Shown: piece by piece, positions 32,625 to 61,490 of the stretch
How positions within the stretch are numbered: the first letter of the stretch is position 1
Layout of the letters: every line of letters begins with the position of its first letter
Notes under the pieces: model-generated
Seen by the model: the letters and a program-made list of their open reading frames with translations, nothing else
The model's database searches: none
Told to the model about the DNA's origin: nothing
DNA from: Trichomonas vaginalis G3
Lineage: Eukaryota; Parabasalia; Trichomonadida; Trichomonadidae
NCBI RefSeq assembly: GCF_026262505.1
Contig: NC_067206.1
Location: 5,050,879-5,114,878, forward strand
DNA length: 64,000 nt
Reading direction: 5' to 3'
Position numbers and translations under genes: made by a program

Positions 32625-33098
32625 GGATCAAGATTCGTAACCGTCAATCAATTAATGGATGCTCTTTCACCAATTCTTGAAAATGTTAAACAAGTAGATG
32701 TTTATTTCGATGATTATGTAGAAAGTTTATATTATAAAGGTAAGTTTAATATTAAACCTATTGCTTTTGCATTTGATAATAAATTAATTGAAAATGCAAA
32801 AATTTGGGAATTAATTCCGAATATTGAATTTATAACAAATATTAATGATAAATGGTTTAAACGAATTCCAACCACAAAAGTTCTTTGTAAATTAATGATC
32901 AAAACTGAGGAAAAAGAATTTAACGGGTTTAAATATCATCCAAATAAAGTTTCAGAACTAGAAAATGAAAAACTTCAGAAAAAATTAAACGATAGACTTT
33001 CAAATGATCGTATTGAAAAAATAAATAAACTAGCAGAAGTTGCATTTAATAATGAAATATTTGATGAATATAACCTTGAACTCAGTGATGGGCTTTAA
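32619..33098 (+). CDS. Unknown element protein, left terminal gene of B (159 aa)
   Basis: Start codon lies inside the terminal repeat. MSGSRFVTVNQLMDALSPIL then a strand-rich middle and a helical, lysine-rich end. It ends DGL at a GC-rich double-hairpin sequence (33,090-33,118) and overlaps the convergent gene by 4 nt. No homologue in the visible part of C. Family not recognised. Confidence 0.65.
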   Translation: MSGSRFVTVNQLMDALSPILENVKQVDVYFDDYVESLYYKGKFNIKPIAFAFDNKLIENAKIWELIPNIEFITNINDKWFKRIPTTKVLCKLMIKTEEKEFNGFKYHPNKVSELENEKLQKKLNDRLSNDRIEKINKLAEVAFNNEIFDEYNLELSDGL

Positions 33099-33118
33099 GG
33101 ACCCGGGCTCAACGAGTC
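33090..33118. repeat. Double-hairpin sequence 1 (gene ends, B)
   Basis: GC-rich 29 bp in an AT-rich region: second stem GGCTC/GAGTC around AAC (33,106-33,118), preceded by a weaker GGG/CCC stem. It covers the stop codons of two convergent genes. Member of the family also seen at 39,538, 47,051, 51,028, 51,927 and elsewhere. Confidence 0.5.
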
Positions 33119-33475
33119 ATGATTTATGAAATCAATTATTTGATTCATTCTTTCTTCAATAATTTCTATTCTTTTTGTTAAATCATCTATTTTCATTAAT
33201 GAGGTGATTCTTGATTGAGGAATAGATTTCAAACTAACCACTCCTTTTATTTTTGAAATTTTGAATCCATCAACTTTAAACATTTTATTCAATTTACATG
33301 TTGTCAATTCTTCAAATAATTTTTTATTATTAGCATAATAGTCATTAAATTCTTCAACAGATGAAAAAATTTTTGTTTCAGTAATTGGTTTAACAACGTT
33401 TATTTTTTGTTGAACATTTCCACTTTCATTTATTTCTTCCTCCTCTGTTTCATTTATTTTTAAAATTGGTTTCAT
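33095..33475 (-). CDS. Unknown element protein (126 aa)
   Basis: MKPILKINETEEEEINESGN: acidic N-terminus, central strand/helix, then a C-terminal coiled segment (DDLTKRIEIIEERMNQIIDF). The last residues SLSPGP are encoded by the double-hairpin sequence at 33,090-33,118, so the original end may have been slightly different. No family recognised. Confidence 0.6.
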   Translation of the reverse strand: MKPILKINETEEEEINESGNVQQKINVVKPITETKIFSSVEEFNDYYANNKKLFEELTTCKLNKMFKVDGFKISKIKGVVSLKSIPQSRITSLMKIDDLTKRIEIIEERMNQIIDFINHDSLSPGP

Positions 33476-33541
33476 TTATCATTAAATAAAAATTAAAATA
33501 TAAAAGATGAAATATATTTTTTAATTAATATTAAATCAACT

Positions 33542-33778
33542 ATGGCTGCAGGATTCTTTAAAAAATTATGGGAAGGAATTAAGAAAGCTGCGGGTTGGGT
33601 TCATCAAAAGATTATTAAACCCATTGCAAACTTTTTGGCACCAGTAGCGAAAACGGCAGGAACTATCATAGGTGGAGTATTAGGTACTAAAGCAGGTAAT
33701 CCGGCAATGGGAGCACAAGCAGGTAACGCAATTGGTGGAATAGCTGAAGGAATACTTAATAAAATAGGGGGTAGATAG
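33542..33778 (+). CDS. Small amphipathic Gly/Ala-rich protein MAAGFFKKLW... (78 aa)
   Basis: N-terminal basic amphipathic helix MAAGFFKKLWEGIKKAAGW, then HQKIIKPIANFLAPV and a hydrophobic Gly/Ala-rich C-terminal half (TIIGGVLGTKAGNPAMGAQA). Similar N-terminus to the convergent gene at 34,017. The Gly/Ala tail resembles membrane-inserting phage and adenovirus minor proteins. Function inferred only. Confidence 0.65.
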   Translation: MAAGFFKKLWEGIKKAAGWVHQKIIKPIANFLAPVAKTAGTIIGGVLGTKAGNPAMGAQAGNAIGGIAEGILNKIGGR

Positions 33779-33861
33779 TGGAAAAATAAATAAATATTAT
33801 TTTTATCTTAGTATCGGTTGAAGTCTTTGATAAACTTTTTCTCCTTTATTTAATATTTCTC

Positions 33862-34017
33862 TTATTGGGCAGCTTTTGGTGTTATTGATTCAGCAACGTC
33901 ACTAATTGCTTCTTTATTCTTAAATATCCAATTTGCTCCTTTCTTCATTGTTTCCCAAACTTTATGCGCTCCTCTTTTTACTTTATCCCATAATTTTTTA
34001 AAGAATCCTGCTGCCAT
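33862..34017 (-). CDS. Small amphipathic paralogue MAAGFFKKLW... (51 aa)
   Basis: ATG 34017: MAAGFFKKLWDKVKRGAHKV, then WETMKKGANWIFKNKEAI and a short polar end. The first ten residues are identical to the 33,542 gene, which faces it, so the pair arose by inverted duplication. It lacks the Gly/Ala tail of its partner. Too short for similarity search to be easy; the shared start is the main evidence. Confidence 0.6.
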   Translation of the reverse strand: MAAGFFKKLWDKVKRGAHKVWETMKKGANWIFKNKEAISDVAESITPKAAQ

Positions 34018-34086
34018 AGTTGATTATTTCATTAAAATTAAAAATTCATTTTCATCTTTTAATTTTGATTTTTTATTTAATAATAA

Positions 34087-35726
34087 ATGACGACTAACTA
34101 TTTGGTGCCAAACACTAAACCGATTAATGGAAATGTGTTTCATTCATTCGAAAAGATAAATGAAATATTCGCGAAGAATGATGGTAGAAGATATTATAGA
34201 GAACTTGAAAGTTCATGCTATGACTCTGATGCTCCATATTTTGATGATAAACAAACTCATTTAAGAATTACAAATCCAGCTCATGATGTGAACCAATTAG
34301 GTGACACATATATTAAACGCAAAGTTAAAGCAACTCTAGTTTCAAATAAAGCTTTCACATGTGATGCCGCTTTTAAATGCATGCGTTTATTCGTTGGTTA
34401 CAAATCATCAAATCAAAGCTTTAAACAATTAGAAGTAGAAACCGAAAGAGGTGATGCCGGTTATCTTCAGATGGATTGTGCCCGTGAATCTTTCGCATTT
34501 GCAACATATAAACCAAAATCAGAAAGGAAAGTTAAAAAGTTTGTTCATTCGTTATATAATAATGTTCAAAAATATGATAACTCAGTATGTGGTAAATATA
34601 TTGACCCTTCAGAAGTTTTCACTAAAGCAAATGAAGAAGTTGATGTCACTTTTGATATGATTATTCCGGTAAATGATTTGTTAGCATTTCAGGCGTTCGA
34701 TGATTATCCTAATCATTTGGTGAAATCATTCTTAAATATTATGTTTTCAGGGATACTTTAGTATTTTGTCAGGTTGACCCGTTAAGAGTTGCTGATTTAC
34801 AAAATTACGTTTATGAAAAGATAACTGATGAAAATTATGAAAAGATTACGAATCATGTTTATAAATATGATCGCAAATTCCAACAAATCGGACTTCCTGC
34901 CAAATTAATTACAAGCTTAGCCGCTGCATCTGCTGACGCAACAGTTGATGACGTTATTATTTCATGCACAAAGATGGAAGTTTTAGAGGATAAATGCATT
35001 ACACCAGGATACGGTTTAATTGAAGAATCAGTTAAAGCAATACCACGTTTATTCAGTAAGGAAGATCCATTCATGATTCCAGCTCAACATATTGACGTTC
35101 GTTCACTAAATGGAGGATGCATCACTCCTGAAGGTATCAGCTCAGATTTCTCATACGCTCTTCATAATGTTACAGATGTTGTGTTAACATTTCCGAAGAA
35201 TGCAATGCAAAGAACGGTTTTAGAAAATCCAATGCTTCGAGGTCTTCAGGTCACTATAGATTCCAGAAACTTCCCCGATCAAGCGATGACCACAGTGGGT
35301 GACATATTCTTTACACGTATGCTTCAAGCTTCTGATTTAGATGGAGTGAATGAATGCACGGAAGAATACGAGGACTCATTAACTAGACCACTGAATGATG
35401 ATAATGGCACGCCATTAGCTAGAACATGGAAAGACCAAACTTCATTCTTATGCACTATTCCAGTTCAACGTGATGGAGCGGGTATATTCTTTGATGGATT
35501 AGAAACTTTCAACTCACAAGTTACAGTACAAGTGAAAGCTTATCCAATCATTCAGGGTGAAAATGACACTTACTGTTCAAAGGTGACAAATCCTCCTCAG
35601 GTTTGGTTTACTAGGACAACATATTGGACATGGACACCGGATGAAGGTTTGAAATATCATCCAACAGGTACACCACCACAGTATAGAAGTTCATATGATG
35701 AAATATTGATGAATAGAAATGTTTAA
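34087..35726 (+). pseudogene. Major capsid protein (double jelly-roll type), one frame break
   Basis: Two frames (34,087-34,761 and about 34,740-35,726) join to about 546 residues, right for a Maverick capsid. Features: HLRITNPAHDVNQLGDTYI strand block, FDMIIPVNDLLAFQAFDDYP before the break, then DTLVFCQVDPLRVADLQ, FMIPAQHIDVRSLNGG, LQVTIDSRNFPDQAM and a C-terminal PPQVWFTRTTYWTW. The IPVNDLL..YP block corresponds to VPLSSFL..LP in element A. The break lies in a T-rich stretch around 34,740. It forms the hexameric shell capsomer if functional. Confidence 0.65.
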
Positions 35727-35750
35727 AATTATAAATTTATTTTTGATTAA

Positions 35751-36564
35751 ATGGATTTCAATTCTGAAGAATTAACAGATGTATATAATACATACGTAGA
35801 TGATATGATTAATGAAGCATTGAGTGATAATAGAAATGCTCTATCTAAGGAAAAATTAATGAAAATTCCATATTCTGAATGTTACTTAAATTCAATCACT
35901 GCAGCAATTGGTAAACAGAATAAAGGTAAAACATTAACGATATTAAAACAAATTATCATTATTGCTAACAATTCCCCCATTCACATGTGTTAATTTATAT
36001 CAACCGTTCAGGTTCACCTTCAGATGATACATTTGAATCTTTAAAGCATTTAATCAAAATTCCAATTATTTATTTATCACAAGAAGAAGCAGAAGATTAT
36101 TTAAAAAACTTTTAATGTATAAAGAATTATATAATACAATCAAGAAGCAAGGATTAGAGGATAAAATTATTGATAAACAACGGGATGAATTATTTGAAAC
36201 ACTTTCTATTTCAAATTTTGATAGAGAATTTTTGCATTCACTCATTTTTCTAGATGATGCAGTGAAATCAAAACTAATAACTAATGAGAAATCATATTTT
36301 AATCAGTTATTAACTCAATGTCGACACATTCAGTGTTCATTCTTTATGGCTGTTCAATATTTCAAAGCATTAAGCACAAACATTAAATCAAACCTGTCCA
36401 CCCTTTTCATTTTCAGTGGGTTTAGTCGTCAACAGTTGAACGTTATGCTTTATCAAGTGAATTTACCAATGAGCATTAATGAACTTTACACACAATATCA
36501 ACAATTAGGAGAACATGGAAAAATAATAGTTGATTTAAATAAAGGAAGTGTTAAATTTGATTAA
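35751..36564 (+). pseudogene. FtsK/HerA-type genome-packaging ATPase, frame-broken
   Basis: MDFNSEELTDVYNTYVDDMI, Walker A AAIGKQNKGKTLTILKQI (about 35,905-35,960). After a shift near 35,990 the sense reads LIYINRSGSPSDDTFESLKH, and after another near 36,112 it reaches Walker B HSLIFLDDAVKSK (about 36,235-36,275), CRHIQCSFFMAVQYFKAL and FIFSGFSRQQLNVML. About 270 residues. Same motif order as the element A ATPase at 8,475. The protein would drive DNA into capsids. Confidence 0.75.
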
Positions 36565-36602
36565 CTTTTTATAATTAATTTTTATTTTTATTTATAATAA
36601 AC

Positions 36603-37497
36603 ATGACAAAATAGCAAATCTTCTACAGGTTCCATTAAAACGAGGGACAAACAAAAAGGGTGCATATGAGAACTATGAAGTTCCTATATGGAATGAAAGA
36701 ATTAGTCCACATTGTTGCTCTTCTTCAAAAGGATGTTAAACAAATGAGAAACGTTTTAACATTACCAGAAGCTCAAGCATATGCCAAACGTCATGGACCA
36801 AATTGGAAGCACATGAAGCAGACATTACGGGTCCAAATGGAAAACCTGATGGTATAAATGAAGTTTTCGTTACTGATGGTCAAGGTAATATTAAAGTCAT
36901 AAATGGTTATAAATTAACTATACTGATTATCCTAAACGTAAAGCATATAATGAATGTTATCCTATGCAATTTGATGAAAATGGAAAAGCTGTTAAACAAT
37001 ACATTGGAGAAGGTGAAAATGGTCCAATTAATTCATACCGTCATAATCCATATTCTTATTTCAATGAAGAATTAAATGCTATTGAAGAGGGACCGGATGG
37101 ATTACCACGATATGTTAATCAGTTTGATGGTCAATATGCAAATTTGAGACCTGAAATTCCAGCTAAGAAATTCTTTAAAGTTGCTTTATTCGATCCAGTG
37201 TTCAATGAACAGAAAGAAGCAATGAAAGCAGAATTTAAACCAATTCAAGTGGCAAGAATTTCTTCATCTTCACTTTCAGAAGCGTTCAAGGAATTGATAA
37301 AGAAACCACTTTATTCTCAACAAGGTTATAACTTTGATTTAATTAAAGAAAGTGATAGACGTAAATTAGAAAAATCAGATGGTTTTAAGAATGCATGTAA
37401 TGAAATGATTAAAGATATTGTAAATGATAAAATAAGACTGGAAGAAACTCAAAGCAATATCAATAACATAATTGGTGCAGTTACAAAGAAAGTATAA
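36603..37497 (+). pseudogene. Virion-type protein of unknown family, frame-broken
   Basis: The start at 36603 is followed by a shift within four codons; sense then reads ANLLQVPLKRGTNKKGAYEN and, after more shifts, ADITGPNGKPDGINEVFVTD. The last 177 residues are one frame (36,964-37,497): MQFDENGKAVKQYIGEGENG, NPYSYFNEELNAIEEGPDG, PAKKFFKVALFDPVF and a helical end. Element C has the same gene (63,416 to window end), nearly identical in the first half but clearly diverged in the last 80 residues. Function unknown. Confidence 0.55.
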
Positions 37498-37580
37498 GCA
37501 AACAAGATGAACCTTGGGATATTACCGTAACAACTAAATAAAACTTTAAATATATTTTTCTTTTTTTTATTCAATTATAA

Positions 37581-38277
37581 ATGAGAAGACGTTTCACAAG
37601 TCAAAAGAACACAAACGCAAAAGCAGAGATTACGGTTGGTTATAACGTAAATGATGATAAATCACGAATTATTCAAAATGTTAAAGTTAATGTTAGTCCT
37701 GAATTAACAAGGTCAGCAACTCAACCAAATTTATTAACTCGTGACTTACCGAAAGAAGAGGAGGAGCAAAATAAAGAAGATGGAGACCCAATCATTTTAT
37801 CTGAACCCGGTAAAGAACCTGTTGAAATTCCCACTTATCCAACATACCCCCCCTCTTTCATCAAACATCGAGAACCCAGGAATCTACGATTCCAGTCGCA
37901 ATGCGCCATATAAAATAGACATTAATTCTGAATTAATGAAAATTTACCGTGATATAATAACTGATAATTATGATTCAATAATAAATTTAATTGATCAATC
38001 CGGTTTAATTATTTTACCTTATGAATCATTAATTCACATTATCGCCATTCTTTGTGATGTTCAAGATTCAGACGTTAAGATTCAATTTTTCATAGATGAT
38101 GAGGTTTCATGCTGCGGAACAGTTGCAAAAATAAATCCTATAAAGGATATTAGCACAATTAAGATATCAAAGAACGGAACAACAACTGAACTTCATTTAA
38201 CATATAATGATATTTATAATAAAATAGTTGATGAATATAAAATATCACTTGAAAAATTCTTTGTTAAGGCTATTTAA
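37581..38277 (+). pseudogene. CCG-motif Maverick protein, one homopolymer frame break, 30-bp insertion
   Basis: MRRRFTSQKNTNAKAEITVG; the frame shifts in a C-run at about 37,848 where element C has an extra AC. Beyond it the second frame continues to stop 38,277. The C-terminal block matches the element A 4,962 gene (LPYESLIHIIAIL, DVKIQFF, VSCCGTVAKINPI, TELHLTYND). At 37,878-37,907 a 30-bp double hairpin adds ten codons (GIYDSSRNAP) that are absent from C. Ends 4 nt inside the convergent 38,274-38,753 gene. Confidence 0.7.
37878..37907. repeat. Double-hairpin insertion 2 (in CCG gene of B, absent from C)
   Basis: First stem GGAATC/GATTCC with loop TAC is perfect; second stem GTCGC/GCGCC with loop AAT has one mismatch. 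Element C reads straight through (AACCCATATAAAATAG), so the 30 bp are a clean insertion and keep frame. Confidence 0.8.
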
Positions 38278-38753
38278 TATTCAAGCATTAACATTATTGA
38301 ATAATAATCCTTTGAATCATAATCGATAATAATTGACCTTTCACCAGTTTCTATCGTTTGTTTTATTTCTTTTTGTTCCCCACTATCTGGATCGGTCATT
38401 GTAATTGTTTTTGTTATAGTATCAGCTTTATCTTTAACTTCAATCTTTTTTCCATCGGGATATTTAAACCAAAATTCCAAAAATTCGATATTGTCAATCT
38501 GTTCATATTTTAATCTATCAATTACATTTTTAATACCATCTGAAAATCTTATGAAATGGTCATTATATGGGTTTGATTGAACTAAATTTGAATGAAGTGA
38601 AATATAACCCGATGATGAATATGACATTGACTCATATTTTCTGAAAACACTAAAATTTATAACATGAATGAATTTCTTATTCGTTGAATTTATGAATTCT
38701 TGAGGTAATCTTATTCTAGTTTTATTTATCACTGGAAAATAACGCTTTACCAT
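38274..38753 (-). CDS. Unknown beta-rich element protein (159 aa), intact
   Basis: ATG 38753 (MVKRYFPVINKTRIRLPQEF). Strand-rich, with SSSGYISLHSNLVQSNPYND and a late acidic/threonine segment (DKADTITKTITMTDPDSGEQ). The start is 19 bp from the divergent minor capsid gene. The same gene in C (62,245-62,723) is broken near 62,370. Possibly a virion or fibre-associated protein; no family recognised. Confidence 0.65.
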   Translation of the reverse strand: MVKRYFPVINKTRIRLPQEFINSTNKKFIHVINFSVFRKYESMSYSSSGYISLHSNLVQSNPYNDHFIRFSDGIKNVIDRLKYEQIDNIEFLEFWFKYPDGKKIEVKDKADTITKTITMTDPDSGEQKEIKQTIETGERSIIIDYDSKDYYSIMLMLEY

Positions 38754-38772
38754 ATTTTTAATCGTAATAAAA
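38754..38772. promoter_or_regulatory. 19-bp spacer between divergent start codons (bidirectional promoter)
   Basis: Only ATTTTTAATCGTAATAAAA separates the two ATGs, and the same 19 bp separates them in element C (62,226-62,244). Transcription of each gene must start within this spacer or inside the opposite gene. TAAT/ATTA symmetry is visible. Confidence 0.5.
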
Positions 38773-39509
38773 ATGTCAATTATCAATATTATTTCGAATA
38801 ATAGTGTGAATTAAATTTAACAGTTAGCGGAATTTATAATGTTACTCTCGTTTCTGTGAGTGGTAAATTTAATCCCATTCTTTTAGACCCTTCAGATTAT
38901 ATATCATTTATTAAAGATGACCTTGAAAAAACGTATGATATGTATATAAATAATGTGATAGCGAAATGGGATATTAACATGATTTTAAGTTATTTAAATG
39001 AATCATTTATCGTATGGTATGAAGAAAATTTTAAATCAAAACCTGATAAACTTTTTGAACTTGATGAAATAAATAACCTTATTAAATTTCCGCTGAAAAT
39101 TAAATTTTGTACTCCTCATCTTCGTTCATTGTTGGGGATATTAAATTTTGAAAAAGATGTTGGGGATGTTTTGTATTCTGACACTGGTTCCAATTTCATT
39201 TTAATCAAATGTGATAAAGTTAATACCCCAATGAGATTTTCACATCAAACATTAGACCCTAACTCTTACCCATCAATACAAAACATTTTATCCATCAACT
39301 TAAACACATTTTCTTTATCATATCCGTTTCAATTATCCGGGAATTCATTTATTCTTCATTCAAAAGATTTATCAAATATTAAATTTAGAGTAACTGACCT
39401 ATTTGATTGTGATTTAGAATTCATGAATGAAATATTATGGCAATTTCAAATAGAAAAAATAGCTGATGAGATAACGATTAAATATTTATTTTTAAATCAT
39501 AATAAATGA
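38773..39509 (+). pseudogene. Probable minor capsid / penton-like protein, early frame break
   Basis: MSIINIISNN, then one base is missing at about 38,808 relative to element C, where the gene (61,515-62,225) is intact. Beyond that the frame is open to 39,509: SGKFNPILLDPSDYISFIKD, a helical middle, HLRSLLGILNFEKDVGDVLY, LSYPFQLSGNSFILHSKDLS and a final NIKFRVTDLFDCDLEF strand block. The last block resembles that of the element A protein at 5,547. Stop overlaps the next ATG (ATGA). Confidence 0.6.
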
Positions 39510-41345
39510 TTAAACAACAGCAACCACAACAACTTAAGGCACAAAGCACCCAGGTCCCTCAGACCATTACATACGCCATATATGCATATAATTCAAAGAC
39601 GGCAGAACAAACGCAAAGGTTGAAATATGGAGATTTGGAGATAGTATTGAAAAATGACCATTTCGAATTCGTTTGCAAAGGTGGTGCGGTGATATCAAAT
39701 ATAAAAGAAATTTTATTTATGAATTCTAAAATTAAAGGAATAACGGATGATATAACATCAATTCCACCAGAAGAACAGAGATATTACGCATTAAATGCAT
39801 TTCCTAAAGTTTTGAAGATTGGAAGATTTAATTTAAATGAGGAATTCATAGAAGGTTTCCTAAATGACATAATGGAGAAGGCAAATTTGGTTTATGTTGA
39901 TGAAAAAGATAATGAAATTAAAGAAATGGTTGAATGGTATCATGAATGGACATCAAAGATTTTAAAAACTAAAGCTGATACAGGATGGGTTTCAGGATGT
40001 TTAGACCTTAAAGCGGATAAAACATATGTTAACGATGAGTTAGAGAAGAAAGCAGATAAGGAATATGTGGATAGTGAGTTAAATAAGAGGACAGATAAGG
40101 AATATGTTGATGAAAAAGATAATGAAATTAAAGAAATGGTTGAATGGTATCATGAATGGACATCAAAGATTTTAAAAACTAAAGCTGATACAGGATGGGT
40201 TTCAGGATGTTTAGACCTTAAAGCGGATAAAACATATGTTAACGATGAGTTAGGGAAGAAGGTGGATAAAACATATGTTAACGATGAGTTAGGGAAGAAG
40301 GCAGATAAAACATATGTTAACGAAATATACCAAAGTTTGATAGGAACAAAAAATATTGAAACTATTGTTGGCGACTTTTCTGTCAATGAAGAAAATAAAT
40401 ATTTTAGATGGCAGTTTGTACACTCCTTAAAAAATTGTATACGGTGGAAACTCATTCCGAAAAATAACAATGAAATGTATGTAAGTTATAAAAAGAATGA
40501 TGGCACACAAGTTAAAGTTCCATTAGACAACAACTGCTACTTTAAACTTATATGGAGACGAACAAAAGAAATATTTAAGAGTTTATGAAAATGGCAGATA
40601 TGACATTGCCTGACCCAGCTCCAGCACCATTTATTATGACTATGGAGATGATGTCAGAACACCACATGTAGATGAACAAAAGTTAACATTATATTTAGAT
40701 TATTATAGATATAAAAGATATAATGCAATAGAAAAAACGAGAATAGTATATTATTATACAGATGACAGAAATAAATATTATAGTCAAGATTTTACCTACC
40801 CTGAAAACATAAGATTATATTATAAAAAATATTCTGACACAAACCAGAAGAAACCTGAAATAGTTACACTATATTTTAAGTTCAAAAGAGACAATCCTAT
40901 AATATCTCATATGTTTGATTTAATGAACCCAGTAGGTTCTATTTATACATCTATGGATGCAAGAGGTCCTCAAGTAATGTTTGGTGTTGGTGCATGGGAA
41001 CAAATAGTTGACAGGTTTTTGTATTGTGCAAACTCTTCAAAGGAAACAGGTGGAAGTAAAACGATTTCAGGTGAAAATTTACCTGCACATAGTCACTACA
41101 TAGATTTAAGCACATCTCAAGCAGGTTGGCATAAGCATAGATATTGGGATTGGTCAGGAATGACAAAAGGTAAAGGATATGATGTTAAAGACGACGTTAA
41201 GTTTGCCATAAATTGTTACTGGAGTGACACTCAGGGAGAAGGAAACCATACACATTTCGTTTCAGGATATACACAAACAACGGGACAAAGTAAAGAATAC
41301 ATGCCACCATTTATGACTGTATTCGCATGGTATAGAGTTCAATGA
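39506..41345 (+). pseudogene. Phage-type tail fibre with coiled shaft and collar-like tip, frame-broken in the tip
   Basis: N-terminus MIKQQQPQQLKAQ, an element-specific domain (TITYAIYAYNSKTAEQTQRL to GFLNDIM), then a shaft of K(A/V)DKTYVNDELGKK heptad-like repeats. The shaft contains a 148-bp duplication (39,895-40,042 and 40,105-40,252). The tip starts near 40,320: NPVGSIYTSMDARGPQVMFG, FLYCANSSKETGGSKTISGE and LPAHSHYIDL, ending FAWYRVQ. Extra bases break the frame at about 40,545 and 40,590. The N-terminal part matches element C; the last 1 kb matches element A at nucleotide level. Confidence 0.8.
39538..39565. repeat. Double-hairpin sequence 3 (tail-fibre N-terminus, B)
   Basis: 28 bp; second stem GGTC/GACC. 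The first stem is degraded (GGCAC/GCACC) compared with C, where it is perfect (GGCGC/GCGCC at 61,431-61,458). It encodes AQSTQVPQT. Confidence 0.6.
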
Positions 41346-41446
41346 ACACACTTAACCCAAAGGGTTTAGGCTTACCGAATGAACTAAATATATTTTATGT
41401 CTGTAATTAATTAGGTAATGAAGTAATGGATGAACTACAGAAAAGA

Positions 41447-41493
41447 AGTTAAAAGCTTGGGGTCGTTTTGTACAAAAATATTGTGAGTAAATG
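41447..41493 (+). pseudogene. Remnant of a KilA-N gene 3' end
   Basis: AAGTTAAAAGCTTGGGGTCG and the following bases to TGAGTAAATGA repeat the last 45 bp of the KilA-N gene (42,411-42,458) with one change. A second copy of that gene, or unequal recombination, once joined here. Confidence 0.7.
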
Positions 41494-41498
41494 ATTTA

Positions 41499-45908: not shown

Positions 45909-47428
45909 TTAAATATTATTTAAATATAATGGAGTAATAAAATAAATCGGAATTTCTATTAATTTATTGTCAACTTCAATTAATGCATTGCCGTTAATAT
46001 ATCTAACAAATTCAGCTATTGTGTCAAATCTTCGTCTTCTTTTTGTCATTGATTTATCAGTTTTTCCATAATCGAGATGAATCAAAACTTTATTTCCTTG
46101 TTTAAAATTCATGAGCCCCGAATTAATTTGTTCACGTTTAACATCATTCAACCTTTCCATTTGCTTTCTAATATATTCCCATTCTTTTGAAATATCATTT
46201 TTCATTTCCACTGGTTTCATGTTTATAGTTCTATGCCATGTATTATTGTAATAATATACTAACTGTTGTATGATGGAGTCATGATTTCCATCCCAGTATA
46301 TCTGACCGTTAACCCCTAACGCATCTCTAAGAGTTCTCATTACCGCATCAACTATTTTATTATGAAACGTATATGGAGAGGATGAAAAGAAAAATTAATT
46401 TGTGGGAAATAATGAGTCATAGCTGCCTGAAATCCTTTATCACCATCACCCCTGATATTATCTACTCTTTCATGATCTAGTAAGTATTGAATAGCTCTTC
46501 TTGTTTCCTGTTCTGTTTTCCCTTTCACCGGAATGCAATATAAATATCTAGTGTTAATGTTAATGGCAAATAAATAAGTAACGTTTCCTTTTGAATATTC
46601 CAGATGATCGATTTCGTATGAATATGGATATGGAGCAAATGAAGGGCGACTAAATTTTTCCTTTAACGGTTGAATTTTCGGGTCAATTGGTTTATTTAAT
46701 ATCTTGAAATCCTTTTTAAAATCTTTTTGCTTCTTAAATGTTTGAAATGGATATAATAAAGTGAATGATGAAGGATTAACTGAAGGAGGAGGCGGTACTG
46801 TCGTTGGAGGTTTTGGTGTTGTAAGTGGTTTAATTTTATCTGCTTTGATTTTGGATTTCATTCCTTCCTTCATTAATTCTGGATGTATTCTATTCATTTG
46901 TTTTAAATATGCTGTATATAAAGGTTTGATATACTTTCCTGCTTCGAGTTTATGTTGAAGGATGAATTCCAAAAGTTGATCTTCATTTAAAAGTCGGGCT
47001 GAATATGGTTTAACTAATGAATCATAAATTAAAGCTTGTGCATCATTTATGGCCTGAAGGACCTGGGCGTTTTGCACCCTTTGTTTTTGTTCCTTTGGCT
47101 TTTGTGGCTCAGGATTATATAATTTATATAATTCATCAATATCTTCTTCTGTTAATACTTTATTTTTGAAATCTTTCAACTGTTTAAGCTATGATTTAGT
47201 TTTTCCCTTTGAATATTCATTATTTTTAATTTTGTCTTTAATTTCAGAAATTATTTTATTATGATATTTCAAAATTTCATTTTTATAATATGGATAATAA
47301 TATTCCATATCATCACCCGTTATATTTTTATTATATTTTTGGAGATATGCTTTTAAATCGTAATAACTAAGAAATTTTTGATTAAGTACTAAATCATCAA
47401 TTAAAATTTTTAAATCTGTGTTATTCAT
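45909..47428 (-). pseudogene. rve-superfamily integrase, nonsense codon and frameshift
   Basis: Start at 47428 (MNNTDLKILIDDLVLNQKFL). Codon 80 is TAG where C has CAA, and a base change near 46,375 shifts the frame. Element C keeps the whole 510-residue gene (58,308-59,840). Core: YEIDHLEYSKGNVTYLF (first Asp), NIRGDGDKGFQAAM (second Asp), and HNKIVDAVMRTLRDALG with Asp in the Glu position. A basic C-terminal domain follows (KQGNKVLIHLDYGKTDKSMT). A double hairpin lies in the Pro/Gln linker (47,051-47,079). Confidence 0.85.
47051..47079. repeat. Double-hairpin sequence 4 (integrase linker, B)
   Basis: GGCC/GACC around TGAAG, then GGGCG/CACCC around a T-rich loop. The C copy has the same element at 58,657-58,685. 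It encodes VQNAQVLQA on the minus strand, nearly the peptide made by the unrelated tail-fibre copies. Confidence 0.6.
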
Positions 47429-50967: not shown

Positions 50968-51027
50968 TTATGTAAGAATAAAAATTAAAAAATAAATAAA
51001 AATAAAGTTTATTTTTTTAAAGTCCGA

Positions 51028-51054
51028 GACTCAGAGAGTCCAGGGCTAAAGTCC
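51028..51054. repeat. Double-hairpin insertion 5 (at a stop codon, B; absent from C)
   Basis: Stems GACTC/GAGTC (loop AGA) and GGGCT/AGTCC joined by CA. Element C has simply ATGGGCTTTAAAA at this place (54,680). GACTTT flanks the insert on both sides on the minus strand. Confidence 0.75.
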
Positions 51055-52182
51055 ATAAAATGAATTAAGAACACATAAATTTTTATCATCTGCGACGTGA
51101 CGAATACATTTTAATTTACTCAAGAATGCGTACCCTGATACATTAAATCTAATTCCTGTCTTATTTAATTTCACAACTTTGAAAAGGAATGTATGAATAG
51201 CTATAAAATGATGAGAAGATGTTTTATGGGTTGCTTCCATTTTTTCTGAAATAAATGAATAAATATAATGTTTATAAGTTTTCATATCTTTTATATTCTT
51301 AATAACGAATGGTATAGACCTTTCAACTTCGTCTTCCTTCGGTGCTGTTCTTTCATATGAAACATTATTGGTATCTTCAATAATGAAACCACAATCGCAT
51401 AAAATTTTATATGTACCAATTTTTCTTTTGATATTTTATCTAACAAATCAAAAACTTTATCAACACCTGTACATTTATTTAAATAATAATTTGTGTAAAT
51501 ATCATGGTCTTCTTTCTTAATCGTATTTGTTGCATATGTTACATTTTTCAGTGCTTTTTTGAATTTTTCAGAATCAAGAGGAGGTGAAAGTAATATACAT
51601 GGATAATCTCCATCGTCAATAAACTGAAGCTTATGTTTACGAATAAATTTAGTACCTTCTTCTGAAAGTGTTTCGTCAATATCACCATCTAATAAATTTT
51701 TAGTAGATTCCAAAAAGTAATTTTTATATCTTTCCTCATGTGATTTTTGAACTTCTGATTCTGAAGCTGGGATATTCATTAAACCCTCTACTTCATTCTC
51801 AGCATTTCTCAATTCACTAATTCTTTCATCTATTTCATTTCTTAATTGTTCCAATTTCTCAATCTCATCGTTATAATATTCATCTTGTTTAATTTTTTCT
51901 TCAAAATATTCAGGAGGGTGTTTCAAGGCTCTCTGAGCCCAGGTCCTCTGGACCATAAAGAGGAATATTCTCCTGTTTTTCAACTTTTTTGGGATATAAA
52001 TATCTCATTATAGCCTTTTTAGTAATTGGTCCGTTATATTTAAATTCATTCAACAATCTGGAAAACTCTTTCACATTCTGCATATATGTTGGATAAGAAC
52101 CGTCTCCAAAATTTTCTAAAATATTTTCTAATTCTGAATTAGTGAACTTTAAAGATTTCAATGAATTAGTTGTTATACTCAT
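51046..52182 (-). pseudogene. Right terminal gene of B, frame broken by a 28-bp double hairpin and an indel
   Basis: Start codon 52182 inside the right terminal repeat: MSITTNSLKSLKFTNSELEN. A helical acidic N-part resembles the C gene at 52,777 (LGFTNEEIKDILEE). At 51,927-51,954 a 28-bp double hairpin shifts the frame; sense resumes HPPEYFEEKIKQDEYYNDEI and VEGLMNIPASESEVQKSH. A further indel near 51,430 precedes the last part, ending VADDKNLCVLNSFYGL. About 375 residues. No family recognised. Confidence 0.65.
51927..51954. repeat. Double-hairpin insertion 6 (28 bp, breaks a gene of B)
   Basis: Both stems perfect: GGCTC/GAGCC and GGTCC/GGACC, each with loop TCT, joined by CA. Length 28 is one more than a multiple of three, exactly the offset between the frames before and after it. 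The homologous C gene has no such sequence. Confidence 0.85.
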
Positions 52183-52405: not shown

Positions 52406-52411
52406 TAAATA
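52406..52411. repeat. Target site duplication of element B, right copy
   Basis: TAAATA, identical to 32,390-32,395. Confidence 0.9.
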
Positions 52412-52589: not shown

Positions 52590-52640
52590 AAGATTCACTA
52601 CCATAATGAAATAAAAAATAATTTATTTTTTATCTTTTAT

Positions 52641-52719
52641 AAAAGAAGCTATATATAGATGATGTCAGATATTCCGCGATTAATTAAACATTGTTTAAAT
52701 CCTGAATGGGTTAAACTTC
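52641..52719 (+). repeat. 79-bp duplication of the leader and start of the first C gene
   Basis: Matches 31,965-32,043 (AAAAGAAGCTATATATAGAT to GGGTTAAACTTC), giving MMSDIPRLIKHCLNPEWVKL again, then breaks off into a different leader (TTACGAAAAATTAAAACTTAG). A truncated tandem copy. Confidence 0.8.
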
Positions 52720-52776
52720 TTACGAAAAATTAAAACTTAGTTATGTTTATTATTTTATTTTTTTATTTTGTATGAA

Positions 52777-54687
52777 ATGAGCGTCAAAACTAACAACGTT
52801 AAAAAATTAGGATTCACAAACGAGGAAATAAAGGATATATTAGAGGAGGTGGGTTATGATGTTGATAAATATTATTTAAGAAATTGTCAAAAATTTGCCG
52901 AGTTATTAAATGATTTAGATTATGATGGAAAAATGAATAAAGATGATGTTATAAATTTCTTATATCCTACATCTGAAGAAGAAAAACCTAAAGAACCTGA
53001 TGTTTTCCCCGAATATTATGAAGAACGGATTAAAGATGATGAATACAATGAAATTGAAAGACTGAAAAAAATAAGAGATGAAATAGATGAAAAAATTAAG
53101 GAATTAAGAGAAGTTGAAAAATATAATGAAAATGAAGTAGAGGGTTTAATGAATATCCCAGCTTCAGAATCAGAAGTTCAGAAATCTCATGAAGAAAGAT
53201 ATAAAAATTATGTCTCAGAATCAACACAAAATTTATTAATCGTATTAGTTGCATCTATTATGATTTTATGTATAAATGCATTTATGATTTTATGTATAAA
53301 TGCATGAATGTTAAGCTCTTAAAAACGTGACATATGCAACTAATACGTTTAGACTAAAACATAAAGCAAATGAATATTTTTGTGGTTGCGAGTTCTGAAT
53401 GCTGAAGTTTTAGATTTCTCTATAAATGATATCATTGCACTTACAATGTTGCTCCAGCCTATCGCATAAATCATAGAAAATCCAAAAAAAATAATATAAA
53501 GAAAATTCTCATGAAGTTCAAAAAATACCGTGTAACATTAAAATTTGTTATGCATAATACATTTTAGCTATTATTGATTTTTTTTTTAATTTTCGAGAAA
53601 TTGAATGGTGAGTCCGATAGAGAAATTTTTAAAAATCCTAGTGCCTCATAGAAGTAATTTCCCTCGTCTCCCATACTTCCAAATGTATGCATATGACATA
53701 AACTTTTATGCATTACACAAGTGGCCAATAATATCTATAGAGTAAAAAATTAGAAATTTAATTTTTTTATATGATAGTTATATTTCAGATTTGCGAGCGT
53801 AACTTTTTTCTCCATGGCATACTTTTTTAAGAGCAAATGATCAAAATCGTCCTTCAATTATTGAAGGAGCTGATATCTTTTGAAAATTGAATTGAAAGGG
53901 TATTCAATTTTCAAATTTCCTCTCAATTTTGGAAACATATCAACTCTATGAATTAACAATTATGTGCCTTCACAGTTTATCAGTCATATAAGGTGCTTAT
54001 AAAGAAAAAAGTTACGCTCGCAAAATATGTTTTTATATAGATTTCACATAAAATAATTATGTAATTTCTAAAAAGAATATTTTTGTTCTTGAATATTAAA
54101 GTGTATTGTAGTTTAAAAAGTTTTAAATATGTTGCTAAAATTTCAGGTTTATAGCTCATGTCTAGCATGACTTCTTCGTATGCGCAAAAAATCTGACACG
54201 TAAGGGTATCCTTAAGAAAGAAGATCATGATATTTACACAAATTATTATTTAAATAAATGTACAGGTGTTGATAAAGTTTTTGATTTGTTAGATAAAATA
54301 TCAAAAGAAACCATTGGAACCTATAAAATTTTGTGTGATTGTGGTTTCATTATTGAAGATACCAATAATGTTTCATATGAAAGAACAGCACCGAAGGAAG
54401 ATGAAGTGGAAAGGTCTATACCATTCGTTATTAAGAATATAAAAGATATGAAAACGTATAAGCATTATATTTATTCATTTATTTCAGAAAAAATGGAAGC
54501 AACCCATAAAACATCTTCTCATCATTTTATAGCTATTCATACATTCCTTTTCAAAGTTGTGAAATTAAATAAGACAGGAATTAGATTTAATGTATCAGGG
54601 TACGCATTCTTGAGTAAATTAAAATGTATTCGTCACGTCGCAGATGATAAAAATTTATGTGTTCTTAATTCATTTTATGGGCTTTAA
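52777..54687 (+). pseudogene. C homologue of the terminal gene of B, interrupted by 0.9 kb of other DNA
   Basis: ATG 52777 (MSVKTNNVKKLGFTNEEIKD). Alignable with B to SESTQNLL (53,233). A stretch homologous to KNVTYATNT is seen at 53,325-53,350, and coding resumes at about 54,208 (KKEDHDIYTNYYLNKCTGVD) to stop 54,687, where C is unbroken. About 70 codons present in B are missing. C and B are close in the 3' part but diverged in the N-terminal half. Confidence 0.7.
53352..54205. other. Unassigned insertion in element C with inverted repeats
   Basis: Absent from B. Contains a 22-bp inverted repeat (GCGAGCGTAACTTTTTTCT core) at 53,790-53,811 and 54,003-54,024, and a 13-bp perfect hairpin (TTTGAAAATTGAA, arms 53,879-53,891 and 53,903-53,915) between them. 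No convincing gene; an 82-codon minus frame looks accidental. Could be a small non-autonomous transposon. Confidence 0.5.
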
Positions 54688-54736
54688 AAAATAAACTTTA
54701 TTTTTATTTATTTTTTAATTTTTTATTCTTACATAA

Positions 54737-57700: not shown

Positions 57701-58184
57701 TCCTAACACTCAAGCATTTCAAGCAATTGTTACCGATAAACAATTTTATGATAAAAACATTTTCAAATTCGCACCTTTTGATTTCTTCTGTTTTGATGAG
57801 AAATTTAAACCTAAATTAAAGAATAAAGCTGAAGAAAAAGCACATGAGAAGAAGTTATTGGGTTTAGCAATTGAGAAACAAGGTGATAACATGGTTGCTT
57901 TATGCCCTAAGTGTTATACATCATTCAACGGTTCAATTGATGGAAGTGATTTTAAAAAGATTGCACAAAAAATGAAAGGTGTTAGTTTACGACAAAATAA
58001 ACAATTAACACCTAAAAATTATTTGGATATAATAAATGATAAAGTTATTTTCGATGGTCAGAATATTAATTTACAACTTAAAAATGGGTCAATGACTCGC
58101 TTAACAATTGGTAAGACTGCATTAACAGGAGCACACACTAAGGCTGTATGTTGTGAAAATGGATGTTGTATGCCATTTATTTAA
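54737..58184 (+). pseudogene. Family B DNA polymerase of element C, frame-broken
   Basis: Near-identical to the B gene. Landmarks: exonuclease TFDFETLET near 55,365, GFNSGKFDLN near 55,686, YCNKDVEIM near 56,098; HNH-like zinc site 56,427-56,560; motif A near 56,807; motif B near 57,368; motif C GDTDSSYW near 57,655. Breaks at about 55,555, 56,080, 56,965, 57,150 and 57,590 are not the same as those of B. One base present in B is missing near 57,590, while the base missing from B near 48,085 is present here. The reading ENGCCMPFI ends it. Confidence 0.88.
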
Positions 58185-58307
58185 TAAAATGCCACAGAAG
58201 AGACAAAAGGAACCGTTAATGATGCGATTCAATATGTAAATAATGGTTTTGATACTATGATTCAAAGAGGTGGGCACCCTTAAAACATTTATTTTATTTT
58301 TATATAA

Positions 58308-59840
58308 ATGGATAACGTAGATTTAGAAATTTTAATTGATGATTTAGTATTTAATCAAAATTTTCTTAATTATTATGAATTAAAATCATATCTCCAAAAA
58401 CATAATAAAAATATAACGGGTGATGATATGGATTATTATTATCCATATTATAAAAATGAAATTTTGAAATATCATGATAAAATAATTTCTAAAATTAAAG
58501 ACAAAATTAAAAATAATGAATATACAAAGGGAAAAACTAAATCACAACTTAAACAGTTGAAAGATTTCAAAAATAAAGTATTAACAGAAGAAGATATTGA
58601 TGAATTATATAAATTATATAATCCTGAGCCGCAAAAGCCAAAGGAACAAAAACAAAGGGTGCAAAACGCCCAGGTCCTTCAGGCCATAAATGATGCACAA
58701 GCTTTAATTTATGATTCATTAGTTAAACCATATTCAGCCCGACTTTTAAATGAAGATCAACTTTTGGAATTCATCCTTCAACATAAACTCGAAGTGGGAA
58801 AGTATATCAAACCTTTATATACAGCATATTTAAAACAAATGAATAGAATACATCCAGAATTAATGAAGGGGGGAATGAAATCCAAAACTTCATCATCCAA
58901 AATCAAAGCAGATAAAATTAAACCACTTACAACACCAAAACCTCCAACAACAGTACCTCCTCCTTCAGTTAATCCTTCATCATTCACTTTATTATATCCA
59001 TTTCAAACATTAAAGAAGCAAAAAGATTTTAAAAAGGATTTCAAGATATTAAATAAACCAATTGACCCGAAAATTCAACCGTTAAAGGAAAAATTTAGTC
59101 GCCCTTCATTTGCTCCATATCCATATTCATACGAAATCGATCATCTGGAATATTCAAAAGGAAAAGTTACTTATTTATTTGCCATTAACATTAACACTAG
59201 ATATTTATATTGCATTCCAGTGAAGAGGAAAACAGAACAGGAAACAAGAAGAGCTATACAATACTTACTAGATCATGAAAGAGTAGATAATATCAGGGGT
59301 GATGGTGATAAAGGATTTCAGGCAACTATGGCTCATTATTTCCCACAAATTAATTTTTTCTTTTCATCCTCTCCATATACGTTTCATAATAAAATAGTTG
59401 ATGCGGTAATGAGAACTCTTAGAGATGCGTTAGGGGTTAACGGTCAGATATACTGGGATGGAAATCATGACTCCATCATACAACAGTTAGTATATTATTA
59501 CAATAATACATGGCATAGAACTATAAACATGAAACCAATGGAAATGAAAAATGATATTTCAAAAGAATGGGAATATATTAGAAAGCAAATGGAAAGGTTG
59601 AATGTTGTTAAACGTGAACAAATTAATTCGGGGCTCATGAATTTTAAACAAGGAAATAAAGTTTTGATTCATCTCGATTATGGAAAAACTGATAAATCAA
59701 TGACAAAAAGAAGACGAAGATTTGACACAATAGCTGAATTTGTTAGATATATTAACGGCAATGCATTCATTGAAGTTGACAATAAATTAATAGAAATTCC
59801 GATTTATTTTATTACTCCATTATATTTAAATAATATTTAA
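58308..59840 (+). CDS. rve-superfamily integrase (510 aa), intact
   Basis: Leader TTTTTATATAAATG. N-terminal 80 residues are acidic/helical (MDNVDLEILIDDLVFNQNFL), then a Pro/Gln/Lys linker with a double-hairpin-encoded VQNAQVLQ (58,657-58,685). Catalytic core about residues 280-375: YEIDHLEYSKGKVTYLF, NIRGDGDKGF and HNKIVDAVMRTLRDALG, giving D, D, D instead of D, D, E. The second and third Asp are about 31-33 residues apart. The C-terminal domain is basic. It would integrate the element with 6-bp duplications and is a candidate source of activity for the broken B copy. Confidence 0.88.
   Translation: MDNVDLEILIDDLVFNQNFLNYYELKSYLQKHNKNITGDDMDYYYPYYKNEILKYHDKIISKIKDKIKNNEYTKGKTKSQLKQLKDFKNKVLTEEDIDELYKLYNPEPQKPKEQKQRVQNAQVLQAINDAQALIYDSLVKPYSARLLNEDQLLEFILQHKLEVGKYIKPLYTAYLKQMNRIHPELMKGGMKSKTSSSKIKADKIKPLTTPKPPTTVPPPSVNPSSFTLLYPFQTLKKQKDFKKDFKILNKPIDPKIQPLKEKFSRPSFAPYPYSYEIDHLEYSKGKVTYLFAININTRYLYCIPVKRKTEQETRRAIQYLLDHERVDNIRGDGDKGFQATMAHYFPQINFFFSSSPYTFHNKIVDAVMRTLRDALGVNGQIYWDGNHDSIIQQLVYYYNNTWHRTINMKPMEMKNDISKEWEYIRKQMERLNVVKREQINSGLMNFKQGNKVLIHLDYGKTDKSMTKRRRRFDTIAEFVRYINGNAFIEVDNKLIEIPIYFITPLYLNNI
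58657..58685. repeat. Double-hairpin sequence (integrase linker, C)
   Basis: GGGTG/CGCCC around CAAAA, then GGTC/GGCC around CTTCA. Same place as in B (47,051-47,079), so it predates their split. Confidence 0.6.
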
Positions 59841-59857
59841 TTTTTATTTCGTAAGAA

Positions 59858-60124
59858 ATGAGTGACAACAAAGCAGCCAAGAGTCCAGACAATGAATATA
59901 AAAAGAAACTAAACAGAATTAAATCAAAAATATGCTATTACAAAAAGAAGCCGCAATGCGGTGGGGCTGAAAACGATAAAGAGAGGAAAGAAATAATCGA
60001 AAAATTAGAAACTTACCGTTCAATCCTTAAACTGAGTGAAGCAAAAATAAAAGAATTTAATAGAATAAATAAATTGATTGGAAGAGATGAATTTAATAAA
60101 GATGAATTTTTAAACTCAATCTAA
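59858..60124 (+). CDS. Small coiled-coil protein (88 aa), C copy
   Basis: MSDNKAAKSPDNEYKKKLNR; homologue of 45,625-45,888 with scattered substitutions that keep the frame, a sign of selection. Leader TTTATTTCGTAAGAAATG is identical in kind to that of B. Confidence 0.7.
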   Translation: MSDNKAAKSPDNEYKKKLNRIKSKICYYKKKPQCGGAENDKERKEIIEKLETYRSILKLSEAKIKEFNRINKLIGRDEFNKDEFLNSI

Positions 60125-60155
60125 ATTTAATTTTTATTCCTCTTCCCGAACCCTT

Positions 60156-60299
60156 CTAGGTTCTTCTTTCCATCATTACTGCATAACCGCATCTTCTCGG
60201 TTTTCGTGGTTTGTTGTTTTTAATTCGTTCTTGCATCATTTTTATCATTTCCTCCCTTGTTATGATTCGTGGTAAATTTTGAGCTTGTGGGGTATCCAT
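60156..60299 (-). pseudogene. Very small basic protein, C copy, shortened
   Basis: ATG 60299: MDTPQAQNLPRIITREEMIK; ends at a TAG inside a small hairpin (GAACC/GGTTC, 60,142-60,160) that B does not have. B continues seven codons further. Homologue of 45,464-45,628. Confidence 0.6.
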
Positions 60300-60407
60300 T
60301 TATATAAAAATAAAATTTTGTTATCAGTTATTTCTGCAGTTCATCCATTACTTCATTACCTAATTAATTACAGACATAAAATATATTTAGTTCATTCGGT
60401 AAGCCTT

Positions 60408-60446
60408 GACCCAAAGGTCTGGGCTCAAGCGCGTTCAATGAACGCG
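60408..60446. repeat. Two GC-rich hairpins at the tail-fibre stop codon, C
   Basis: GACC/GGTC around CAAA (60,408-60,419) and a perfect 7-bp stem CGCGTTC/GAACGCG around AAT (60,430-60,446). B has related but altered stems here (GTTCAATGAAC and AACCCAAAGGGTT, 41,338-41,373). Confidence 0.6.
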
Positions 60447-61490
60447 GTACCATGCAAATACAGTCACAAATGGTGGCATGTAATCTTTACCCAAGCCTGT
60501 TGGATTTGTTGTGAAAGTATGGACATGATTTCCTCCTGGTTCAGTTTGTCGAAAAGTCTTTTTTGTTGAATCGTTATAAGCTGGAGATAAAACATCATTG
60601 CCAGCTTCATAGTCTGAGTTGTATAATGGGCGGTCTCTTAATGAGTGTCTATGGTCGCCAGAAAAGTTTGTAGTTCCTGTATGAGTGTGCGGTGGAAGGT
60701 TTGCTTCTTTAATTTTCTTCGAACCTCCTGTTTGCTTTGAATATCTAGCACAATATAAGAATTTATCTACAATCTGCTTCCACGTACCAAAACCTAAAAC
60801 TGTTGCTGGATTTGTTGAATTCATTGATGTATAAATAGAGCCTATAGGATATAATGTTTGAAGTATTTCATTTTTCATGCTTGTAATCACATCATTTACT
60901 TCCGACTTCTTTGCATAATTTTCATCAACATAAGTTTTATCTGCTTTAAGGTCTAAACATCCTGAAACCCATTCTGTATCAGCTTTAACTTTAAAAGTCT
61001 CCAATGTCCATTCATGATACCATTCAACCTTTTCTTTAATTTCATTATCTTTTTCATCAACATAAACTAAATCTGCTTTCTTATTTAATTCACTATCCAC
61101 ATATTCCTTATCCACCTTCTTCATTATGTCGTTTAGGAAACCTTCTATGAATTCCTCATTTAAATTAAATCTTCCAATCTTCAAAACTTTAGGAAATGCA
61201 TTTAATGCGTAATATCTCTGTTCTTCTGATGGAATTGATGTTATATCATCCGTTATACCTTTAATTTTTGAATTCATAAATAAAATTTCTTTTATATTTG
61301 ATATCACTGCACCACCTTTGCAAACGAATTCGAAACGGTCATTTTTCAATACTATCTCCAAATCTCCATATTTCAACCTTTGCGTTTGTTCTGCCATCTT
61401 TGAATTATATGCATATATGGCGTATGTAATGGTCTGAAGGACCTGGGCGCTTTGCGCCTTAAGTTGTTGTGGTTGCTGTTGTTTAATCAT
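60435..61490 (-). CDS. Phage-type tail fibre (351 aa), intact, alternative tip
   Basis: N-terminal domain as in B (MIKQQQPQQLKAQ to GFLNDIM). Shaft of KADLVYVDEKDNEIKEKVEW and KADKTYVDENYAKK repeats. Tip: LYPIGSIYTSMNSTNPATVL, GFGTWKQIVDKFLYCARYSK, GGSKKIKEANLPPHTHTGTT, NHVHTFTTNPTGLG and MPPFVTVFAWYRVH. The HTH and HVH pairs suggest metal-bound fibre trimers as in phage tail fibres. The tip is only distantly similar to the A/B tip, while the base of the fibre is the same as B. Confidence 0.85.
   Translation of the reverse strand: MIKQQQPQQLKAQSAQVLQTITYAIYAYNSKMAEQTQRLKYGDLEIVLKNDRFEFVCKGGAVISNIKEILFMNSKIKGITDDITSIPSEEQRYYALNAFPKVLKIGRFNLNEEFIEGFLNDIMKKVDKEYVDSELNKKADLVYVDEKDNEIKEKVEWYHEWTLETFKVKADTEWVSGCLDLKADKTYVDENYAKKSEVNDVITSMKNEILQTLYPIGSIYTSMNSTNPATVLGFGTWKQIVDKFLYCARYSKQTGGSKKIKEANLPPHTHTGTTNFSGDHRHSLRDRPLYNSDYEAGNDVLSPAYNDSTKKTFRQTEPGGNHVHTFTTNPTGLGKDYMPPFVTVFAWYRVH
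61431..61458. repeat. Double-hairpin sequence (tail-fibre N-terminus, C), 28 bp
   Basis: Perfect GGCGC/GCGCC (minus strand, loop AAA), CA linker, then GGTC/GACC around CTTCA. Encodes AQSAQVLQT. Degraded copy in B at 39,538-39,565. Confidence 0.7.

Follow-up and report, generated by a model that had tools for sequence, protein, structure and literature searches.

Introduction

Short mobile hairpins have been described from several mitochondrial genomes. The available portion of the account of yeast GC clusters (GC42, GC18) presents them as short GC-rich palindromes in AT-rich DNA, which are present or absent at matching sites and whose small units merge and shuffle into larger ones (PMC4478555). 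In the hairpin elements of sponge mitochondria, according to a source available in part, apparent double hairpins arise via tandem insertion of single ones; inserts in coding genes cause no frameshift, and the double-hairpin elements of Allomyces reportedly lack flanking duplications (PMC2800124). How such mitochondrial hairpins move is still treated as open in the sections available of both sources (PMC4478555, PMC2800124). Here we describe short GC-rich hairpins, often arranged in pairs, in a 64,000-nucleotide stretch of the Trichomonas vaginalis genome (hereafter the window, meaning the whole stretch analysed), which corresponds to 5.05-5.11 Mb of contig C4 (40,211,917 bases) in a genome of 180.85 Mb. 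With a probability of roughly 0.6, we interpret these hairpins as short non-autonomous mobile sequences spreading among and within the DNA of large Maverick elements.

The right half of the window contains two large Maverick copies, B and C. Both contain a DNA polymerase B match (DNA_pol_B_2, Pfam) and Gp10_C tail-fibre-like matches; B also has Pox_A32-like ATPase and KilA-N matches (Pfam) and a helicase-like gene with DUF5906/VapE matches, and C has a gene with relatives that carry the name integrase core domain protein, although Pfam gave no integrase match. The combination of PolB, an integrase-like gene and an ATPase in a giant element identifies the hosts, by gene content, as Mavericks (Polintons). 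The hairpins therefore do not lie in mitochondrial DNA, but in a chromosome-sized contig with Maverick genes. About 5,000 Mavericks, each up to 30 kb, are given for the T. vaginalis genome in the available part of one report (PMC7845603).

Filled and empty sites among Maverick copies

Three blocks of B and C were aligned, the two main ones being 97-98% identical; the blocks compared amount to about 8 kb, and a large-scale difference between them (39.9-45.4 kb) lies outside the alignment. Up to the diverged end, which starts at 51,521, the only clean insertions or deletions of at least 30 bp in these blocks were two double hairpins of exactly 30 bp each, which bears out an earlier note on this DNA that had described clean insertions at 37,878 and 51,028 relative to the other copy. 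The first (37878-37907, plus strand) is inserted in frame in a Maverick gene of B and is absent from C, where the alignment places the corresponding empty site at 63089-63092 on the minus strand. The second is intergenic and consists of a 16-bp unit (51026-51041, plus strand) followed by a 13-bp unit (51042-51054, plus strand), the empty site of C being aligned at 54676-54687 on the minus strand.

The states of these and two further sites were scored by eye among the matches listed, namely the first 100 in genome order, which do not constitute a random draw, of 590 (37,878), 655 (51,028), 626 (39,538/61,431) and 151 (51,927); the exact anchors used miss copies with altered flanks or shorter gaps. 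At 37,878, 43 copies were filled and 57 empty, and no intermediate states occurred, only point changes and the loss of a single base in one copy. At 51,028, 47 copies were empty (42 of a CCC type and 5 of a TCC type), 20 carried the second hairpin alone and 31 carried both, with one further copy possessing two hairpins of which the first was different, and one odd copy. The first unit was met in the two-hairpin state only, and was swapped for another in four copies read. As a separate observation, two very different sequence types start about 315 bp to the left of the 37,878 insert.

A third 30-bp double hairpin, supported by consensus and pairing, is located near the N-terminus of a tail-fibre-like open reading frame of B (39536-39565, plus strand), and its better paired counterpart is found in the tail-fibre-like gene (Gp10_C) of C (61431-61460, minus strand). 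Full or nearly full inserts were present in 74 of the listed copies, about ten of these with losses of one or two bases, while 22 retained a 12-nucleotide remnant resulting from an 18-bp internal deletion, three had one hairpin and one was of another kind. No clean empty copy appeared in this anchor search, which is blind to gaps shorter than 20; a separate exact search identified seven, and the empty state was also seen in the proteins P0009, P0010 and P0027 (among the matches listed, 120 of 670). The integrase-like gene region of B contains a double hairpin with partly mispaired stems (47051-47080, minus strand), whose counterpart, supported by consensus and pairing, lies in the integrase-like gene of C (58656-58685, plus strand). 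At this site protein P0136 looks empty, and P0147, a metagenome relative with 64% identity, has a similar peptide. Lastly, a perfect double hairpin, supported by consensus, pairing and folding, occurs at or close to the beginning of an open reading frame on the minus strand (51925-51954, plus strand), and a 15-bp internal deletion was observed there in three listed copies.

The sites at 37,878, 51,028 and 39,538/61,431 are hence not fixed in all copies, fixation being what the earlier note had held would refute mobility, and only 51,927 is fixed as far as seen. Assembly error, which had likewise been raised as a possible source of the differences between B and C, is unlikely, judged from assembly copies and public protein records, because many copies, as well as separate protein records, show exactly the same 30-bp difference.

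Distribution of the double hairpin

In one orientation, the good sites share the consensus AA-GGN9CC-CA-GGN9CC-AT. Exact matches to GGN9CCCAGGN9CCAT numbered 1,236 genome-wide (625 forward and 611 reverse), with none on either strand for the reversed control. All 30 match loci that were fetched lie at known Maverick sites of four types (14 integrase, 9 tail-fibre, 4 33,090-type and 3 51,927-type), so that the motif was not encountered outside Mavericks among them, and by eye the matches listed (100 of 1,236) fall into the same few site classes. A looser canonical pattern designed for other families stayed near its control level, with 58 matches against 41, 48 of the 58 being of the tail-fibre/integrase class and three of an element-A type discussed below. 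A second such pattern returned 155 against 41, with 93 of 100 listed belonging to the 51,927 class. Since all fetched loci lie at known sites and the looser patterns gave the same classes, the canonical double hairpin represents, as far as searched, a few Maverick sites multiplied by Maverick copy number.

Within the window, a scan combining consensus and pairing (score at least 13) identified seven places, i.e. 37,878, 39,538, 47,051, 51,927, 58,658 and 61,431, plus 24,570; ten shuffles of the window gave none at this threshold, and one place in 40 over four thresholds. The scan missed 51,028, 33,090 and 60,408. The earlier note had proposed double hairpins at seven locations, and these are upheld at 37,878, 39,538/61,431, 47,051/58,658, 51,028 and 51,927; they are not confirmed at 33,090 in this copy and at 60,408, where a weak hairpin-like stretch just past the tail-fibre-like gene (60408-60440, minus strand) differs in all three copies seen and is of doubtful membership. 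A generic hairpin scan without the consensus was too weak to use (four window matches, three at noted sites, versus 0-3 per shuffle), and the palindrome pattern GCCCC..GGGGC was rejected as unrelated, falling below its control (40 versus 942). Scans of viral contigs found no relatives, no Rfam family matched in the window, and these hairpins were not seen outside the large elements in the sequence read.

The double unit also occurs in unrelated genes, as had been claimed: a stretch of 32 bp is near-identical in a Gp10_C tail-fibre-like gene and an integrase-named gene, whose flanks are without likeness, and the resemblance, by eye, is confined to AAGG..CCAT.

Single hairpins as units of arrays

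Two sites suggest a smaller unit. The site at 33,090 (33088-33121, minus strand) is the base of a hairpin array over the stop codon of a DUF4108 gene, and is in a short state in this copy. One single hairpin, AAGGCACAAAGTGCC, has 90 places in the genome and none for its reversed control; 83 of the 90 were read, all in distinct contexts, and comprised 78 of 33,090-type, four of 51,028-type and one element-A end module. Across 33,090-type loci, which were mostly selected for carrying one hairpin and include 75 distinct loci, the array past its two-part base is empty (window), U2 (L024) or, in the great majority, U1U2, with U1U2U1dU2, U2U1U3, U1U3 and others also represented. These units are hairpins of 13-16 bp with joints at CC^A. 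The swapped state at 51,028 has U1 as its first unit, and U3 differs by one base from the second unit there. In 75 of 75 distinct loci where the end was found, the DUF4108 C-terminus reads SDGL* whatever the array (one of the 78 matches of this search being other sequence), because the last array unit supplies the gene end.

Units start with A or AA (once GA), followed by GG..CC or GA..TC over 13-16 bp, and occur singly, paired (30 bp) or arrayed, with an identical unit at unrelated sites. Merger and shuffling of units are visible in the states at 51,028 and in the 33,090 arrays. The single 13-16 bp hairpin, rather than the double, is the more likely mobile unit.

Base composition, folding and pairing

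Consistent with the earlier description of GC-rich hairpins standing out in AT-rich genes, GC content in the eight stretches measured was 0.42-0.68 within the hairpin versus 0.23-0.31 in 600 bp of flank. The family thus comprises hairpins that are short and GC-rich against an AT-rich background, and in many cases double, except for 33,090 in this copy. Folded as single-stranded DNA, 51,927 (z -2.8) and 61,431 (z -4.5) form two hairpins, as does 37,878, where the second is short (z -2.9), and for 51,028 a single nested hairpin is the preferred fold (z -1.7). The 33,090 sequence of this copy does not fold (z 0.07), although good hairpins are found at that site in other copies, and at 60,408 pairing is poor in one hairpin.

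The suggestion that stems differ while pairing is kept holds in the main: 71 of 80 cells are paired in 16 distinct arm pairs, whereas 20,000 re-deals of the 3' arms averaged 53.4 and never exceeded 66. At 47,051/58,658 and 39,538 the stems are partly mispaired. Further, the first hairpin at 51,028 is GACTC/GAGTC in its common form and GGCAC/GTGCC in its swapped form, amounting to two full pair replacements. Because mispaired stems are common among tail-fibre and integrase copies, it seems that spread depends on pairing and the resident copy does not.

Insertion context and reading frame

Insertion points read CCC^AT, CTT^AT and YCC^AT. In the shorter copies read at 33,090, 37,878, 39,538/61,431 and 51,028, the point lies directly ahead of AT or, where a unit already exists, of that unit's A (CC^AGG). 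The junction shares 1-3 nucleotides with the end of the insert, or eight (TAAAGTCC) at 51,028, and there is therefore no uniform target duplication. CCA constitutes a short repeat at 37,878, and TAAAGTCC does so at 51,028.

At coding sites, inserts of 30 bp and common deletions of 15 and 18 bp are all divisible by three, although about ten listed copies at 39,538 have lost one or two bases; at non-coding sites, length changes in steps of 13, 14 and 16 bp. We read this difference as selection removing frame-breaking states at coding sites. The hairpins also add short in-frame stretches of peptide (10 codons) to virus-like genes. Introns were rejected as an identity of the inserts on the basis of known splice motifs.

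Insertion, loss and alternative origins

Mavericks replicate by protein-primed strand displacement using their own PolB. We propose that insertion would take place while Maverick DNA is single-stranded during replication, when a folded hairpin might be recognised or cause a template switch by the polymerase, such that a unit is copied in just before A(T) without real target-site duplication. Arrays might then lengthen or shorten at their CC/A joints through slippage or unequal exchange, and filled and empty states would spread as copies recombine. Single-strand insertion or template switching, which we infer, fits units that are hairpins of free sequence, the ^A(T) context and the lack of uniform duplication, as well as the confinement to Maverick-type DNA in the DNA searched and the unit-wise build of the arrays. 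The earlier note's idea of mobile double hairpins akin to those of fungal and algal mitochondria is supported, the mechanism outlined above being a proposal.

A number of observations weigh against mobility. No insertion in progress was seen, and no enzyme was found by Pfam among the 40 open reading frames of the window, the genome lying outside that search. None of the listed copies was empty at 51,927 (0 of 100, of 151), the two looser patterns revealed no further abundant canonical family, and the arms of non-canonical sites in the pairing test were hand-picked. Clean empty sites can also be produced by precise loss between short repeats. A tree of 22 rows at 37,878 requires at least three filled/empty changes, and the flanks of that site (37238-38467, copies L147-L166) are a mosaic of alleles common to copies. 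Such mosaicism is a sign that Maverick copies recombine, and filled or empty status at 37,878, judging from these sequences, does not follow copy genealogy. The mosaic flanks render the tree uninformative on the number of insertions, and together with the three or more changes they are the reason why repeated insertion at one site is not claimed here: one insertion at each site, together with recombination or deletion, could account for what is seen there. Slippage and recombination clearly cause losses as well, which could underlie much of the present polymorphism.

Related proteins bear on the direction of change at 37,878. Among 41 relatives of the gene, 14 are not named T. vaginalis (P0227, P0228, P0230-P0235, P0237-P0240, P0243, P0244), and 10 of these lack the insert, reading through its place (NP then Y or similar), in a region that is variable and gapped, so that the alignment is not strict there. 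In P0239 the insert columns are blank, but its surroundings differ; P0228, P0237 and P0244 (3 of 14) have other residues there, which counts among the points against. P0228 and P0237, metagenome relatives of the gene at 62723-63382 of the window, each have 10-11 extra residues at the 37,878 place or close to it, and P0235, also a metagenome relative, has an insert of 10-11 residues elsewhere in the gene; these outgroup inserts are known from protein only, and close kin lack them. Several relatives that share 95-99% identity with P0237 do not have its insert.

The best surviving alternative to mobile hairpins is that old inserts, or native hairpins, are now only lost by slippage, with recombination among thousands of copies shuffling their states. 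The internal deletions at 39,538 (22 remnants and three one-hairpin copies) and in three copies at 51,927 are of the kind it predicts, the five TCC-type empty copies at 51,028 look like deletion products, and the mosaic flanks are in keeping with it. As a complete account it is nevertheless unlikely, given the 10 of 14 outgroup proteins without the 37,878 insert and the same double unit in two unrelated genes, while gain is required to explain both the swapped hairpin at 51,028 and the longer 33,090 arrays.

Y1 enzymes of the IS200/IS605 and REP (repetitive extragenic palindromic)-like kinds are hairpin-recognising single-strand transposases, and a dedicated enzyme of this type could insert units in trans. 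Conservation of structure rather than sequence, a fixed short insertion context and the absence of uniform target duplication would all suit it. We regard it as improbable, as no Y1 transposase is present in the Pfam matches of the 40 window reading frames, many of them unmatched, the genome not having been searched for one, and as the hairpins were unseen outside the large elements in the sequence read.

Alternatively, palindromes may be made in place, when a folded-back strand copies its own end during replication, in which case the hairpins would be local and not mobile. The last unit at 51,028 and 33,090 repeats the flank TTAAAGYCC, its 5' arm being the reverse complement of the flank end, as expected of such copying; the stems at 37,878 and 39,538, however, have no counterpart in the adjoining flank, and identical units at different sites are hard to reconcile with a local origin, which leaves this route with little probability. 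Conserved functional signals, e.g. transcript-end hairpins of the giant-virus type, would accord with the gene-end positions of 33,090 and 60,408 and with the SDGL* end retained under any array, but are very unlikely when 37,878, 39,538/61,431 and 47,051/58,656 lie within genes, copies differ in whether a hairpin is present, many of the integrase and tail-fibre stems are mispaired, and Rfam has no match in the window.

End modules of element A

A separate family of hairpins was identified at the end of a third large element, A, which occupies the left half of the window. One end module (24570-24597, minus strand) contains the hairpin GGCACGAAGTGCC in the frame GGCTAGAA..TGGAAG, and a second (24487-24514, plus strand; approximate BLAST coordinates) has the stem GGGGC/GCCCC. 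The module GGCTAGAA-GGN9CC-TGGAAG (GGCTAGAAGG..CCTGGAAG) has 1,702 genome matches versus none for controls. Among the matches listed (100 of 1,702), a minus-strand module is often succeeded by a plus-strand one at a distance of about 25 kb. With a single exception, which has a loop change, these modules contain exactly one of GGCACGAAGTGCC, GGGGCGCAGCCCC and GGCGCAACGCGCC, three stem types that are fully compensated. Two of these three hairpins resemble first-hairpin stems of the B and C inserts, and one module elsewhere (L100) contains exactly AAGGCACAAAGTGCC. Kinship between the element-A modules and the hairpins of B and C is suggestive only.

The end modules (24487-24597; also L038, L049 and L059) adjoin poly-A/T runs and tandem repeats, and the tandem and inverted repeats at 22805-23590 recur near element A end modules at other loci. 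A protein kinase gene (25256-26254) and an S1/P1 nuclease gene (30384-31487) are situated between or beside the large elements.

Comparison with known systems

With hundreds of near-identical copies in one genome, empty, single, double and array states stand side by side, and insertion, growth and decay can therefore be read directly. The hairpins also mark recombination among Mavericks. We found no description of such hairpins in Mavericks or Trichomonas among titles and abstract starts in open PubMed Central, a limited negative that leaves most subscription literature outside.

Repetitive extragenic palindromes and bacterial interspersed mosaic elements (BIMEs), with their RAYT transposases, and the Rickettsia palindromic elements likewise feature paired GC-rich hairpins and in-frame gene inserts; they are bacterial, and longer or provided with a known transposase and a fixed tetranucleotide. 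Miniature inverted-repeat transposable elements (MITEs) carry terminal inverted repeats that belong to a transposase, together with a target duplication, whereas the Maverick units span 13-30 bp, with neither terminal inverted repeats nor uniform target duplication seen. The Submariner MITEs of Pandoravirus are comparable, in the part of their description available, as small non-autonomous inserts in giant-virus-like DNA, sometimes within genes (PMC5799277).

The nearest parallels appear to be the yeast GC clusters and the hairpin elements of Allomyces and sponges. Yeast GC clusters differ, according to the portion of the source available, in being mitochondrial and in having AG or ACT flanking direct repeats (PMC4478555); no such AG or ACT duplication was found at the Maverick hairpins, which lack a uniform one. 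The Allomyces and sponge elements, in the text available, are also mitochondrial (PMC2800124), and no sequence kinship to them is known. Taken together, we tentatively suggest that a system of the mitochondrial GC-cluster type may operate in chromosomal virus-like DNA, with single 13-16 bp units copied into ^A(T) sites as Mavericks replicate and assembled into arrays, stems in common with the ~25-kb element A, and giant elements exchanging cassettes. If true, such hairpins would be tied to a mode of replication rather than to an organelle.

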